From positions 744,001 through 808,000 of the forward strand of contig NZ_FSRC01000001.1 of assembly GCF_900129785.1 (NCBI RefSeq): a DNA stretch of 64,000 nucleotides, given 5' to 3'. Below are positions 18,238 through 24,359 of the stretch, in pieces. The notes under the pieces were generated by a model. That model searched no databases, was not told the DNA's origin, and saw only the letters and a list, made by a program, of their open reading frames with translations. Position 1 is the stretch's first letter, and each line of letters begins with the position of its first letter. This DNA comes from Algoriphagus halophilus (GTDB lineage Bacteria > Bacteroidota > Bacteroidia > Cytophagales > Cyclobacteriaceae). The translations under genes and the position numbers were made by a program.

Positions 18238-18380
18238 GAATTCTCTGCTTGCGTAGATCCTGATTTATGTAGGCTGTGGTCTTGAAAATTTTATTCTGAT
18301 AAAATTCTGTATTTTAGAATAATTGAACATTTTCAAAGTGAAATGGAGATTTGCCATTCCTGAGACAATTTGATTTTTCT

Positions 18381-20084
18381 ATGAAAACGATCCGAATATT
18401 CATTGCTTCATCTTCAGAATTGAAAGAAGATAGGGATCAATTCAGGAATTTTATTAGCCGACAAAATGATATTCTTCATAAGAAAGGCTTGTACCTGGAA
18501 TTGGTGCAATGGGAAAATTTTTTAGATGCAATTTCTGACTCCAGGCTTCAAAATGAATACAATGAAGCGATACGTAACTGTGATATCGTTTTGTGTTTGT
18601 TTTTCACGAAAGTAGGGAAGTATACCGCAGAGGAATTTGATACTGCATACCAAGTTTTTAAAGAAAAAGGGAAGCCAAGGATTTGGACTTACTTTAAGAA
18701 TGCCCAAATCAATACTGGGTCTATTACCGATGAGATCAATACCCTGTTGGCATTCAAAAAGAAAATAGGGGCCTTGGGGCATTTCTATACAGAGTATACC
18801 AATATTGACAATCTGATCAATCAGTATAGGAATCAATTAGATAAGTTTTTGGTAAATTATGAGGAGGGGGCGAGTTCAGGGAAAGATCCAAAAACCAATA
18901 AGGAAAATGGGCAGGAAGCCCAAATTGATCAGGTAGTTTTCAATGAAGAATTAACAAAACGATTATTAGAGGCTATTAGCAGGCATAATAGGAAAGCTGC
19001 AGATTTCCTAGGTGCCAATGGGGATTGGGCTGAAAACCCACAGCTCGTTAGAACGGCCAAAAGGATCATCATCAATGGGTTTGTGGGAGTGATTGGAGTA
19101 CAAATCCGAAAACTGATGTCCATCGGAGAGGAGCCCTACTCTACGAGTAAGTTGACAAGGTATATTGAAAATTGTCAACTGGCCGCGAAGCGAAGCCTTC
19201 AACTGATCTGTTACTCTTTGATATCTACCTTATGGGATCATCATTTGGAGAAGAAACCAGAATTTTCTCCGAAGCAAAAAGAAGCCTTTGCTAAGTTTTT
19301 TAAAAATGCCGCGGAAGAGGATCTGATGGACTTCTTGGACCTAATGGACCACCTGATCACAGCATTCAAAGACAATAAGTTGGAATTCCTGATTTCTGAA
19401 TCATTGGAACTTCTTCCTCAACTACAAGCAGGCACGGTCTTTTACCAAGCTTGTGAGCAATTGATGGAGCTTCAGAAATCAGCGAAAGGAAAAGAGCTTT
19501 CAGGAAAAGACTGTTTAGAGGCAGAGGAGAATTTGTCCGTAATTCTGGAGAATTTGAGCTTCCTTGCTGAGTATAGAATGATTTCCATTAATGAGATCGA
19601 TTTTAATCAACAGCGGAACGACGAGGAGGGATTGTACCTGCATAATTACACGTTTTTAGTGGGAGAAAGTCAGGCGAATAATACCAGCCAAAGTAATGTT
19701 AGAAGAGAGTCTTCTCCTGTGATTTCCCATGCTGTGATTTTGTTTAAAGACAATTACAGGAAGAATATTAACCTGGATCCCTTTATTATAGACTATAATG
19801 GGCTGGCTTTGACAGGAGGTTCAAAAATTTGTTTTTATTCTTATTGCAATACCTACGACGATGGCAATCTGAACTTCAAGTTTATCGAGGACAACAGCAA
19901 TGTGGTGATTAATAAATCCAATAACCCCAAACCAGATGAGGAGGATTTAAATGCTTTGAATAGATGGCTTTCCAAAAAGGAAAATAGGAAAGACATGAAT
20001 TTCGATAAGGTCTATAGTTTGTTTTATCATGCGAAGAAGACCCTGACAGGCATTGAAGAAGAAACCACCGAAGATTTATTTTGA
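18381..20084 (+). CDS. TIR/DUF4062-like N-terminal domain protein, STAND partner
   Basis: A 567-residue cytoplasmic protein starting at the ATG at 18381; a TTG at 18351 is in frame but less likely. Residues 1-160 look like the flavodoxin-like TIR-related fold of the DUF4062 type: IRIFIASSSELKEDRD, then NCDIVLCLFFTKVGKYTAEEFDTAY, where a Glu sits at the position used by TIR NADases. The rest is first strongly helical (200-410) and then beta-rich (420-510), with no family I recognise. It lies 27 bases before the STAND NTPase gene and surely forms an operon with it. In similar conflict systems the TIR-like part is the effector and the STAND the sensor/switch. That assignment is inferred. Confidence 0.72.
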   Translation: MKTIRIFIASSSELKEDRDQFRNFISRQNDILHKKGLYLELVQWENFLDAISDSRLQNEYNEAIRNCDIVLCLFFTKVGKYTAEEFDTAYQVFKEKGKPRIWTYFKNAQINTGSITDEINTLLAFKKKIGALGHFYTEYTNIDNLINQYRNQLDKFLVNYEEGASSGKDPKTNKENGQEAQIDQVVFNEELTKRLLEAISRHNRKAADFLGANGDWAENPQLVRTAKRIIINGFVGVIGVQIRKLMSIGEEPYSTSKLTRYIENCQLAAKRSLQLICYSLISTLWDHHLEKKPEFSPKQKEAFAKFFKNAAEEDLMDFLDLMDHLITAFKDNKLEFLISESLELLPQLQAGTVFYQACEQLMELQKSAKGKELSGKDCLEAEENLSVILENLSFLAEYRMISINEIDFNQQRNDEEGLYLHNYTFLVGESQANNTSQSNVRRESSPVISHAVILFKDNYRKNINLDPFIIDYNGLALTGGSKICFYSYCNTYDDGNLNFKFIEDNSNVVINKSNNPKPDEEDLNALNRWLSKKENRKDMNFDKVYSLFYHAKKTLTGIEEETTEDLF

Positions 20085-20111
20085 TTTCCGCACTATCTAA
20101 AAGATAATTTC

Positions 20112-22088
20112 ATGAAAAAATATCCTTTCAAATTTCTGGATTCCTATGATAGAGAAGATAGGGTCGTATTTTTTGGAAGGGATGAGGAGATCAATACCCT
20201 GTATGAAATGGTGTTTCAGTCTCCCGTAGTATTGGTTTATGGGGCTTCAGGAACTGGTAAAACCAGTTTGATCAACTGTGGGCTAGCTGGCAAGTTTCAA
20301 CCTCATGACTGGTTGGATTTGATGATCAGACGGGGAAATAATATCAACAGCTCCTTGAAAACCATTTTGAAAAATGCGGGTGGAGAGGCAGATGAGGAAG
20401 GTGCGCAATGGGTAGATGATTGGGATTCCGTTACTGATAAGAATGGAGAGGAGTTGACGCCTACCAGCAAAGCTTTAAAAGCAATCTATCAGAAATCCTT
20501 TAGGCCCATATACCTGATATTTGACCAGTTTGAGGAACTGTTTATTCTGGGGTCTAAATCCGAACAGCAGGAATTTTTAGAAACAATCAAAGGGATTTTG
20601 CATTCCTACCAGCCTGTTAAAATGATTTTTTCGATTCGGGAAGAGTATTTGGGATACTTGGTGGAATTCGAACGTGAAATCCCACAACTTCTTCAGAAGA
20701 AGCTGCGGGTAGAACCTATGAATTTGGATAAAGTGAAGCAGGTGATTATAGGTGCGGCTGCTTTTGAAGGTTCGAATATTAGCATCAAAACTGGTGAAGA
20801 AGATGCGGTCGCTGAGGCTATTTTTCAAAAAATTAAAGGCGGCAAGAAATCCCTGACAATCCAATTGCCCTTCTTACAGGTGTTTTTAGATAAACTTTAT
20901 TTGAATATATCTGGGGATCAAAAAAGAGAGAAGCCTGCTGAATTTACCTTGGCCAAGGTCAATGAAATGGGAGAGATCGGAGATATTCTAAGCAATTTCC
21001 TGGAAGAGCAGGTTGCTTCTATTTCCAATGGATTGAAGGGTAAATACCCGAAGTTAAACGTAGAGACCACCTGGAAAATTTTATCTCCTTTTGCTACCCT
21101 GGAAGGCACCAAAGAGCCTATCAGCAAGAAAGAGCTTTTTGATCGATTACCGGATTTTGATAAAAAGTTGGTGGAAGAAGTCCTTTTGGCTTTTATCAAT
21201 AGTCGAATGCTCCGCTATAATGAGAGCATAGACTCCTTTGAAATCGCGCATGATTCCTTAGCCAAGCCCATCGCTGAAAAACGAAGTGTAGAGGAGAAAG
21301 CGTTGTTGGAGATCAAACGCTTGATCAAAAGTCAGGTGTCAATCAAGGAGGAGGCAAGAGAGTATTTTTCCGAAAAACAACTGGTGTTTATTGAACCCTA
21401 TTTAGAGAAGTTCAAACAAACCAAGGAGGAAACAGATTGGATTAAAAAAAGTGAACAATACATCCGGGAGCAAAAAGAGCTAGCAGCAAAGAATAAGCTG
21501 TTAGAAATGAATAAAAAGAAAAGGGAAAGAAGGGTTTGGATAGGTGTGATCGCAGGCATTATGCTGGTAAGTATTTCATTTTTTGTGATAAGGGAGATAA
21601 ACAATAGAAGGTCTCAAATAGCAGATTTGGAGAGAGATTTAGCCAGACAAAAAGACCTTGATCGGACGGAAGAGTTGTTGAGATTGGTAATGAAGGGGCG
21701 TGGGAGAAATTATGAAAATGTAAGCGACTCTGCATTGATGGATATCCTTTATAAAGAGCGGACCTATCCTTTGGATAGTTTGATTTCTATAGAAGCATCG
21801 GTAAGCCCTTCCAATAAAGGTGGAAATAACAGGAATTTCACCATGTGGTTAGATGTGCCTTCCTTCCGCAAAGAAGAAATCAAAGAAGTGCATTATCATT
21901 TTTGTCCTGGATTTATTGACCGTCTTCGCATTTCAAAAGATCCATCTTCCCAGTTTTCAATAGGCTATTTGGGGTATGGCTATTGTCCAGTTATGAAAAT
22001 CGAGATATTACTGAATGCAGGGGATACGATTACCAGAAACTTTTCCTATGAGGAGTATTTTAAAGCTAACCCACCAGAGGGTAGCTAA
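20112..22088 (+). CDS. STAND NTPase with one membrane span and pYEATS-like C-terminal domain
   Basis: A 658-residue protein. Residues 20-60 hold the entry FFGRDEEI and the Walker A loop GASGTGKTS (44-52). Walker B is LIFDQFEELF (135-144), followed by sensor-like FSIREEYL, all typical of novel STAND NTPases. A winged-helix/arm region follows, with IAHDSLAKPI near 380. A charged stretch (KKKRERR) leads into one membrane helix (about 474-495), then a short coiled coil. Residues about 557-655 are beta-rich with MWLDVPSF, EVHYHFCPGF and YLGYGYCPV, resembling the prokaryotic YEATS domain. No WD40 or TPR sensor is present, so the C-terminal domain may be the sensor. It is paired with the TIR/DUF4062-like gene, and its stop is only 10 bases from that of the convergent gene. 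Confidence 0.8.
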   Translation: MKKYPFKFLDSYDREDRVVFFGRDEEINTLYEMVFQSPVVLVYGASGTGKTSLINCGLAGKFQPHDWLDLMIRRGNNINSSLKTILKNAGGEADEEGAQWVDDWDSVTDKNGEELTPTSKALKAIYQKSFRPIYLIFDQFEELFILGSKSEQQEFLETIKGILHSYQPVKMIFSIREEYLGYLVEFEREIPQLLQKKLRVEPMNLDKVKQVIIGAAAFEGSNISIKTGEEDAVAEAIFQKIKGGKKSLTIQLPFLQVFLDKLYLNISGDQKREKPAEFTLAKVNEMGEIGDILSNFLEEQVASISNGLKGKYPKLNVETTWKILSPFATLEGTKEPISKKELFDRLPDFDKKLVEEVLLAFINSRMLRYNESIDSFEIAHDSLAKPIAEKRSVEEKALLEIKRLIKSQVSIKEEAREYFSEKQLVFIEPYLEKFKQTKEETDWIKKSEQYIREQKELAAKNKLLEMNKKKRERRVWIGVIAGIMLVSISFFVIREINNRRSQIADLERDLARQKDLDRTEELLRLVMKGRGRNYENVSDSALMDILYKERTYPLDSLISIEASVSPSNKGGNNRNFTMWLDVPSFRKEEIKEVHYHFCPGFIDRLRISKDPSSQFSIGYLGYGYCPVMKIEILLNAGDTITRNFSYEEYFKANPPEGS

Positions 22089-22098
22089 TGTTCAAGTA

Positions 22099-23685
22099 TT
22101 AATTGAGAGCTGGAATCCCCGCGCTTCTGAGGTGATCTTGTACCTCCCAACTTCCACTTAAATCCAGTTCAGGTACTTGCCCAATATCATTTTGGTGAAA
22201 ATGGTACACCAGAATGGTCAGGTCTTTAGTGGGTAGCGTTTTAACCTTTAAATCATTGGGAAGCGTTGGATAGCTGTTTTGGAGGATTTCTTCAGCAAAA
22301 CTGGTAGTCATGATGTTCCCACCCAGCGTAGCTGGCTTGGATGCCACTACAAATGCAAACATTCGGAATTCGGACTCCACCTCAAAAAAGATAGACTTGA
22401 AAATCTCAAAGTAGGAAAATTTCCCGTCCTCCCCCATGCTTTCGGTGAACCGTTTATCTGAGCTGACTTTGGTACCGTCTTTATTGAACTTTTCTAGGCT
22501 GGTAGTCATGGCATATCCGTCCATATCGTAATAGTAATGGAGATGATTACTTCCGAATCCTGCTTCTTGCATCTTGGATCTAAAAAATAAGTCTACCTGA
22601 TTCAAAGTCTGCAAGTCAGGCTTAAAGTTTTTGATGATTTGATGGGTAGATGACTTAGGGGCAGGGTTAGGGAAAAAGTACATGATGTTTGGAGCTGGAT
22701 TTGGTGCAGAAATAGCAGCTAAACTTTCGTCCCTAATCCCTTCAGACCTTCTAGATGGATACCTCCTTTTTAGTTGCCTAAAAAGCAAAGCCGTAACCTC
22801 TGGAGTCAACTCTTTTTTGATAAACTCATCCTCTTCAAAACGGAGCATTTCCATAAATTCATCATAATGATGATATAAGGTTTCTGTATTAAAATTGGCA
22901 GGGGGCCTAGTTCGTTGGGTAGCGAGAAATTTTAACTGTAAATATCTTGAAATTAACTCCAGCCTATTTTCTAACCGGTAATCTGGGTTAATCGAGTAGC
23001 TTTTAAATGAAGGTGCATTTGGGAAATCAATGGTATTGTTTAAAGTGGACATACTCAGAGGTATTTCGAAAAGTCCAGCATAGAAAGTAAGCGAATCCAA
23101 TTCAATCCTATTCCGTTCTTTGGCTTTAAGAAAGATGCGTTGAAAGTCCGGATAGATGTTTTCGTTAAATAAGGAATTGTATTGGGTTTTCACTTTATAT
23201 ATTTCTGAGCGTATATCATCTGCTGCATCTAAGTCAAAATTGATGATTTCATAAAATGAAAGCTGTTGCATTGAATAGCTCGGATATTCATCTAGTTTGG
23301 CAGCGTTGTAAAAATTTATTCCCCGATCCAATACACTTTTATATCTTCTTAAGGTATTTCTATCTGGTTTCGAATCATTGAAGTAAAGCCGCTTTGCTTG
23401 AGTTTGATACCAAATGGACTGAGTAAAGCTGTGTAAAGGCTGAAAGGTTCTAATGAATGTTCGGTTTTTAATCTGATCCATTTCGTCTTTCTCAAAAGCA
23501 AGAATTTTCGAAATTCGATCGGCATCTATGGAGTCATAATAAATAGAAGTTAAATACAGGTTCATATAGGCTTGAGCTAAGGAGATCGTATCGTTTGGAA
23601 CAGTGTTTACACGATGATTAGCCATGACCCCATTGATGAAAAAGGAGAAGAGTAAAAGGCAAGGAAGAATTTTGAAAAATTTCAT
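22099..23685 (-). CDS. secreted protein of unknown function
   Basis: I do not recognise a family. The 528-residue product has a signal peptide (MKFFKILPCLLLFSFFINGVMA, cited by segment) and no further membrane span, so it should be periplasmic or secreted. The first 300 residues are predicted helical and rich in Tyr and Arg. A proline-rich linker (NPAPNIMYFFPNPAP) near 345 separates a C-terminal part of about 180 residues that looks alpha/beta. The gene is convergent with the STAND NTPase, with only 10 bases between stops and no hairpin between them. It could belong to the same accessory locus or be unrelated. Confidence 0.72.
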   Translation of the reverse strand: MKFFKILPCLLLFSFFINGVMANHRVNTVPNDTISLAQAYMNLYLTSIYYDSIDADRISKILAFEKDEMDQIKNRTFIRTFQPLHSFTQSIWYQTQAKRLYFNDSKPDRNTLRRYKSVLDRGINFYNAAKLDEYPSYSMQQLSFYEIINFDLDAADDIRSEIYKVKTQYNSLFNENIYPDFQRIFLKAKERNRIELDSLTFYAGLFEIPLSMSTLNNTIDFPNAPSFKSYSINPDYRLENRLELISRYLQLKFLATQRTRPPANFNTETLYHHYDEFMEMLRFEEDEFIKKELTPEVTALLFRQLKRRYPSRRSEGIRDESLAAISAPNPAPNIMYFFPNPAPKSSTHQIIKNFKPDLQTLNQVDLFFRSKMQEAGFGSNHLHYYYDMDGYAMTTSLEKFNKDGTKVSSDKRFTESMGEDGKFSYFEIFKSIFFEVESEFRMFAFVVASKPATLGGNIMTTSFAEEILQNSYPTLPNDLKVKTLPTKDLTILVYHFHQNDIGQVPELDLSGSWEVQDHLRSAGIPALN

Positions 23686-23998
23686 TTCAATAATTTGAAT
23701 GAATTTGACTCGTATTTTTTAAGAATAGAAAGAAGGAGGTAATAACGTGGTTGACAGAAAATTCAAATAGGGATATAGAACCGGTAGAACCTGCTTTCTT
23801 AATTTCAATATACTTTAATAATATGGTTAAATCCACTAGTATGGACTTGATATTCAATTAAATGTAGGATGATGGACCGTTAGTTAATCAACCTTTTATG
23901 TGACATAAGTCATGAATTTCTATGGGAAAATAGGTTAGGTTTATTGTGTTGAAAGAGTTTTTCGACGGAACCTTTACATCAACCAAACCTTGGAAATC
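23686..23998. other. intergenic region of 313 bases, no gene seen
   Basis: AT-rich divergent spacer between the secreted protein gene and the DUF2892 gene. I find no open frame with coding character on either strand. It holds one Fnr-type dyad (23901-23912) and a -7-like TAGGTTTA (23936-23943). Confidence 0.6.
23901..23912 (+). promoter_or_regulatory. candidate Fnr/Crp-type operator upstream of the DUF2892 gene
   Basis: TGAC-ATAA-GTCA is a perfect 4-4-4 dyad of the TGAY-N4-RTCA class, 86 bases before the DUF2892 ATG. A -7-like TAGGTTTA follows at 23936-23943, which would put the centre of the dyad about 40 bases upstream of the transcription start, the usual place for class II activation by Fnr-type proteins. 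Confidence 0.45.
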
Positions 23999-24211
23999 AT
24001 GAAAAAGAACATGGGAACAATCGATAGAGCAATTAGATTGGTGGTAGCGGCAGTTTTAGTGCTACTATACTTTTCTGGAATAGTTTCAGGAACATTAGGT
24101 ATTATTTCATTAGTAGTGGCATTGATATTCGCAATTACTAGCCTTGTTAGCTATTGCCCTTTGTATGCTATCGTTGGAATCAAAACATGCCATCACCACT
24201 CGGTAAAATAG
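23999..24211 (+). CDS. DUF2892 (YgaP-type) small membrane protein
   Basis: A 70-residue inner-membrane protein with two hydrophobic helices (about 14-34 and 38-56). The pattern MGTIDRAIRLVVAAVLV and the ending SYCPLYAIVGIKTC are hallmarks of DUF2892, the membrane domain found alone or fused to rhodanese in YgaP. The start is the ATG at 23999; a TTG three codons upstream is in frame but unnecessary. Family members are often linked to sulfur or nitric-oxide stress. The Fnr-type dyad upstream fits redox control, but that is inference. A strong terminator follows. Confidence 0.9.
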   Translation: MKKNMGTIDRAIRLVVAAVLVLLYFSGIVSGTLGIISLVVALIFAITSLVSYCPLYAIVGIKTCHHHSVK

Positions 24212-24241
24212 GATTGTTTATAAATACTAAAAATTTTAAAG

Positions 24242-24268
24242 CCAGAATGAATAGATTCTGGTTTTTTT
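24242..24268 (+). terminator. rho-independent terminator after the DUF2892 gene
   Basis: A perfect 7-base-pair stem (CCAGAAT with ATTCTGG) with a 6-base loop is followed by seven T residues, 30 bases after the stop codon. Confidence 0.85.
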
Positions 24269-24359
24269 ATGGTGTAAATTCACCGTCTGAAAGAATTTAA
24301 AGTTGAAAATTTCAATATTTACCATACTATTGAAATTTGAATCCAAAAAATACCAATTC

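Follow-up and report, generated by a model that had tools for sequence, protein, structure and literature searches.

A presence/absence cassette of Algoriphagus halophilus joins a DUF4062/TIR-like protein, a STAND NTPase and a third gene, and appears to belong to a modular family

The window analysed here is 64,000 nucleotides of Algoriphagus halophilus DNA (GCF_900129785.1, NZ_FSRC01000001.1, positions 744,001-808,000 of the forward strand; coordinates below are those of the window). It holds a cassette of three genes, termed A (18381..20084, + strand, 567 amino acids), B (20112..22088, + strand, 658 amino acids) and C (22099..23685, - strand, 528 amino acids). A consists of an effector-type domain followed by a constant domain, which we also call the core; B is an nSTAND1 NTPase with a membrane helix and a pYEATS tail; and C has an export-like start. 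In relatives, interchangeable effector-type and sensor-type domains surround a constant pair of core and NTPase, and A-B-C is apparently one of the combinations of a larger, mix-and-match modular family. We consider it moderately probable that A-B-C is a transmembrane NLR-like conflict module, which would signal from the outside in and stop or kill the cell by NAD+ cleavage.

A and B lie on the same strand with 27 bases between them, as the first-pass annotation of this DNA had recorded. The two genes had been taken there as the whole unit; the pair stands, but its completeness does not, as C belongs to the unit. C is convergent with B, and its stop lies 10 bases past the stop of B. The annotation had also described B as a STAND core with one membrane helix and a pYEATS-like tail, and the Pfam scan agrees for core and tail. 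Residues 5-384 (20124..21263) match nSTAND1 (PF20703) with 146.3 bits against a cut-off of 27.1 (E 2.6e-42), with the Walker A motif GASGTGKTS read at residues 44-52 (20241..20267), and residues 575-643 (21834..22040) match pYEATS (PF20305) with 59 bits against a cut-off of 26.9 (E 4.4e-16). The membrane helix is placed at residues 475-493 (21534..21590) behind a K/R-rich stretch, its positions being transferred from a 96% identical copy (L001; L and G numbers are our labels for loci and genomes).

The constant domain takes up the C-terminal ~370 residues of A (about 185-560, 18933..20060, from profile, tblastn and model), and is modelled as helices at 189-397 followed by strands at 399-510. 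In A, as in the other copies scanned, Pfam leaves this domain without a match above cut-off, and it gave no PDB sequence match; the first-pass annotation had likewise left these helical and beta regions unassigned. With A alone as tblastn query, its C-terminal part was found in 59 of the 78 loci fetched by B, at most 700 bases upstream of that gene. Among the 73 testable loci (those with at least 900 bases upstream), a profile placed the domain on the same strand as the NTPase and at most 800 bases ahead of it in 65, and over all 78 loci in 66; these counts are non-independent because 26 of the 36 profile rows were drawn from the 78 loci themselves. The two genes overlap by 4 bases in 14 of these 66 loci. 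Of 395 sampled genomes of the phylum, three contain the core, each time beside a B-like NTPase. We infer from the families concerned that the core may contact, and dock on, the NTPase. The annotation had named three outcomes that would speak against it, namely a tail unlike YEATS, a partner unlike TIR/DUF4062 and a pair never found again, and none of the three occurred. Two loci (L077 and L042) hold two constant-domain genes each, placed nearly in tandem in L077.

The N-terminal domain of A (residues 2-165, 18384..18875) had been read as TIR/DUF4062-like, a reading that agrees with sequence matches under the cut-offs and with the predicted fold. Its Pfam DUF4062 score (PF13271, 22.7 bits, 1.2e-4) lies under the cut-off of 24.7, yet several close homologues are named DUF4062 domain-containing in the source databases, and we therefore label the domain DUF4062-like. 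The structure model alternates beta and alpha elements, with block values of the predicted local distance difference test (pLDDT) mostly of 70-88 and four blocks at 51-57; its fold matches include the SPARTA TIR, DNPH1 and plant TIRs, which points to a TIR-like fold. E84 and E85 (18630..18635, within GKYTxEEF) are both conserved in 70 of 70 fused sequences, the window copy included. They are candidates for the catalytic glutamate and may be equivalent to the catalytic E97 of KpSwz, in which case the domain might cleave NAD+.

In other loci the constant domain is preceded by DUF4062-like, TIR, caspase or CHAT domains, either fused or encoded separately, or it stands alone. A scan of 34 pieces at a threshold of 0.001, made up of 26 fused N-termini other than the DUF4062-like ones and 8 genes upstream of standalone cores, returned 23 CHAT, 2 caspase, 1 TIR and 1 DUF4062 match. 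The 68 classified core loci comprise 25 with CHAT, 18 with a fused and 5 with a separate DUF4062-like domain, 1 with TIR, 1 with caspase, 1 with a separate caspase and 17 to which no effector was assigned. Judged by eye in the six split loci whose separate effector gene was read, the end of the effector and the start of the core carry a similar DKI[Y/F]NI...ANF-type motif in five (L019, L020, L021, L023 and L028; not clear in L022). By eye, too, this motif resembles published homotypic coupling (EADs, amyloid signalling), and none was recognised in the fused A of the window. A divergent SLATT/DUF4231 gene lies beside standalone-core versions in L020, L021, L024 and L025; such genes are possibly alternative pore-type effectors.

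These data bear on another explanation, in which A would be a stand-alone defence protein. DUF4062 proteins have been reported to be antiphage NADases (Swarozyc; PMC13174449), Swarozyc being described as a single protein whose winged-helix auxiliary domain binds the phage portal. Like Swarozyc, A has an N-terminal TIR-like DUF4062-type domain, a conserved glutamate and a modular second region (PMC13174449). A might then be of the Swarozyc type, sensing phage through its own C-terminal region, with B and C as separate neighbours. The order of its parts, a DUF4062-like domain and then a large second region, parallels KpSwz with its auxiliary domain (PMC13174449), and the PADLOC candidate PDC-S60 matches A residues 2-164 at 1.3e-13. 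However, the second region keeps its adjacent NTPase in the 65 testable loci counted above, and it also occurs behind other effector-type domains or alone, which suits a coupling role better than phage sensing. Where Swarozyc is described as one protein, this region is accompanied by a membrane STAND protein encoded beside it, and the unit further includes an exported protein. We regard the stand-alone explanation as improbable.

The C-terminal part of the NTPase varies as well. Among 80 NTPases, the tail was of WD40 type in 26, pYEATS in 16, leucine-rich repeat in 1 and other in 31, and 6 were cut. In the leucine-rich case (L144:5903-9886) a DUF4062-like core protein stands beside an nSTAND1 protein with the repeats, which amounts to an NB-LRR-like layout in a bacterium. 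A quick tree of 76 NTPase domains, in which 22 of 73 inner branches are open and fused and separate effectors count as distinct classes, gave minimum numbers of changes of 11 for the sensor class and 9 for the effector class. In L052 and L060 a second nSTAND1-like gene, judged by its start, immediately follows the first.

Several sequence features suggest that the variable tail lies outside the inner membrane. With helices called by hydropathy alone, lysine and arginine are in excess before the membrane helix relative to after it in 68 of 71 proteins (2 reversed, 1 tie). In the pYEATS tails C598 is present in 85 and C625 in 86 of 86 aligned B sequences, the alignment excluding P0086, a short sequence. 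Of the 22 genes that directly follow B on the same strand in non-pYEATS loci, 13 are export-like, against 145 of 396 control open reading frames (p 0.027), a modest enrichment by a crude test. Of the 11 among these 13 genes that were scanned for families, four are WD40 proteins, all following a B without WD40 of its own (L016, L028, L040, L045); two are outer-membrane barrels following a WD40-tailed B (L049, and L064 below cut-off); and the others are one TPR (below cut-off), one PAP2 and three without any match. A WD40 part may therefore follow the helix in the same chain or be exported as a protein of its own, which fits an extracytoplasmic site. Taken together, the charge bias, the near-invariant cysteine pair and the four relatives with an exported WD40 gene behind B suggest that the sensor lies beyond the inner membrane, where the pYEATS tail of B is probably located.

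C matches no family in the Pfam scan. Its residues 1-22 (23620..23685) read as a signal peptide-like N-terminus, and the copies in 16 of 16 pYEATS loci pass a crude export test. By tblastn, C lies beside B in 16 of 16 pYEATS-tailed loci and was found in none of the 62 non-pYEATS loci, 9 of which have B cut by a contig end. In the Subsaximicrobium, Mariniflexile and Pareuzebyella loci, only A, B and C match at 1e-20 among the 18 window genes tested. C is modelled (mean pLDDT 85.1) as an N-terminal helical part followed by an alpha/beta part at about residues 338-528. The latter, taken as residues 336-528 (22102..22680), was matched by itself in nine other genomes of the 395-genome phylum sample, with no B or core match near these nine. 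Proteins with the alpha/beta part only (L136-L143) have no B match in their vicinity, and several of them begin like lipoproteins; long versions of C (L110, L112 and L113; about 840-860 amino acids) repeat the N-terminal helical half.

Eukaryotic YEATS domains are acyl-lysine readers, and the pYEATS tail could in principle stay in the cytoplasm and read acylated proteins in the same way, with C as an unrelated neighbour. Helix calls made from hydropathy alone would be compatible with this. The charge bias, the cysteine pair and the exported WD40 equivalents argue against it, as does the finding of C with pYEATS tails only, and we hold a cytoplasmic tail to be highly unlikely.

Within the genus, 12 of 72 Algoriphagus genomes have the core, and C is found in the identical 12; these counts ignore relatedness. 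A adjoins B in 12 of 12 carriers and C adjoins B in 12 of 12, with a contig end inside B in G431. The closest named relative is that of Algoriphagus lutimaris (96% identity for B, 92% for A). The cassette-holding interval (18238..24302) extends from a GH113 gene to a gene at 24303, oxidoreductase-like by eye, and was delimited from flank distances in the 47 genus genomes that have both flanks on one contig (11 cassette-bearing, 36 cassette-free). The flanks are 5985-6917 bases apart in 10 of the 11 cassette genomes; in the eleventh (G417) they are 132 bases apart and the cassette is located elsewhere. They lie at most 1 kb apart in 31 of the 36 cassette-free genomes, and the trio is therefore a presence/absence cassette. 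Of the five remaining cassette-free genomes, two have Cas9, Cas1 and CRISPR repeats at this site (L148 and L149, with a 76-base repeat period; Cas2 was called in L148, and the Cas1 frame of L149 is short, 173 amino acids), one has a RelE-like gene pair and two have dehydrogenase-like genes. Outside the genus, the neighbourhood of the Mariniflexile copy includes TIR, TPR-S and patatin genes and a Cap17-like/NDT match below cut-off, and that of the Subsaximicrobium copy includes HipA-type genes. A survey published by Burroughs and Aravind in 2020 reportedly gave pYEATS and TPR-S their names.

The CRISPR-Cas9 system at the shared site, the TIR, TPR-S and patatin neighbours and the antiphage NADase activity reported for DUF4062 proteins (PMC13174449) support a defence context. 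The defence role proposed in the first-pass annotation has thus gained genomic context, with Cas9, Cas1 and CRISPR at the same site in two genomes, and stays presumptive.

A number of observations weigh against the conflict-module reading. The DUF4062 score of A is under the cut-off, and N-glycosidase folds match its N-terminus equally well as TIRs. No effector could be assigned in 17 of the 68 core loci, many of them in a WD40-tailed clade with a standalone core, and three genes upstream of standalone cores are of TPR, HATPase/SpoIIE and rhamnosidase types, which are no clear effectors. Eight of the 73 testable loci have no adjacent core, the profile shares rows with the loci it counts, and fold modelling and searching took the constant domain only as part of a larger protein. 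Two apparently complete relatives (L054 and L076) show no helix at the threshold used, the enrichment of export-like genes is small, some of the loci scored as without C have a cut B, and a contact between C and pYEATS would be guilt by association. Finally, GC is ordinary, and the 10 flanking genes of the window that were compared with PADLOC gave no match at 0.001. Some of these points would suit a non-defence signalling or stress switch, in envelope homeostasis or development, with a regulatory nucleotide hydrolase as output: the missing PADLOC matches, the N-glycosidase folds, the loci without assigned effector, and the envelope monitoring that an exported partner could perform. Such a switch is nevertheless unlikely in our view, given the replacement of the DUF4062-like domain by caspase, CHAT and TIR in relatives, the patchy occurrence of the cassette at a site in common with CRISPR-Cas9 and the copy near TIR, TPR-S and patatin genes.

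In the conflict module that we favour, C would be exported and would either cooperate with the pYEATS tail of B in the periplasm or offer it a ligand. A signal originating from phage or envelope would pass from this tail through the single helix of B to the cytoplasmic nSTAND1 ATPase, which would oligomerise on ATP; the constant domain of A would dock on the ATPase and thereby cluster the DUF4062/TIR-like N-terminal domains, and these would cleave NAD+, stopping or killing the cell (abortive infection). Oligomerisation, trigger and antiphage function are what we infer for the system, and the sensor topology is suggested by the sequence signs given above. To our knowledge, the characterised bacterial STAND immune receptors sense phage proteins in the cytoplasm, and periplasmic STAND sensors are known as predictions. 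A wider reading, which we put forward tentatively as a possibility, is that of a bacterial NLR with its sensing side beyond the cytoplasm: the periplasmic tail of a transmembrane STAND ATPase, together with an exported partner (C, or a protein of WD40 or outer-membrane-barrel type), would perceive the adsorption of phage, the injection of DNA or damage to the envelope, and would set off a NADase, caspase or CHAT effector in the cytoplasm by way of the unnamed adaptor domain. If true, the split, membrane-spanning design would be an outside-in innate immune receptor with a layout closer to Toll-like receptors, in which exported partners and interchangeable effectors are joined by one unannotated domain.

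In Avs/AVAST and bNACHT proteins, effector, switch and sensor are in one cytoplasmic chain. The A-B-C system shares the STAND switch between sensor and effector but distributes these parts among two or three chains, and its sensor is probably on the other side of the membrane. Identity with Avs/AVAST was rejected, the effector-type domain being in A and STAND in B, so not in one chain. STAND switches with exchangeable effectors and sensors are already known, and some diversified STAND sensors have already been predicted to be periplasmic (PMC10907252). As in the nSTAND1 conflict proteins (PMC8195603, PMC10907252), nSTAND1 is here combined with interchangeable C-terminal sensors, and effector and NTPase are sometimes separate genes. 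The accessible parts of these descriptions feature EAD/bDLD coupling and FGS/CLec lectin-type sensors, and the constant partner domain, the pYEATS tail and C are absent from them. The EACC1 system (PMC7159879) is also a two-gene, membrane-associated one with constant and variable parts; its 5' gene encodes a one-helix EACC1 protein and its 3' gene usually a caspase/cyclase protein, whereas in A-B-C it is the STAND protein that has the helix and the 5' gene that carries the effector-type domain. Identity with it was likewise rejected, B being nSTAND1 plus pYEATS with no caspase/cyclase match in Pfam. TEP1, NWD1 and NPHP3 (PMC13174449) also place DUF4062 beside a STAND-type NTPase, several with WD40 repeats, but in a single chain, whereas here separate genes are joined through the constant domain; the A-B pair would be the equivalent, in two genes of a bacterium, of proteins such as TEP1 that combine DUF4062, NACHT and WD40. 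No description of the A-B-C unit was found in the searched literature, which excluded supplements and subscription papers, so that it may already be in print. Nor did that literature describe a version in two or three chains with such an unnamed constant coupling domain and the pair of pYEATS and C. The work yields a defined domain that awaits a name and a cassette of three genes that can be put to the test.

The stretch separating C from the gene at 24303 (23686-24302) holds, on the + strand, a small membrane-protein-like open reading frame with the start MKKNMGTIDRAI, which may resemble DUF2892.

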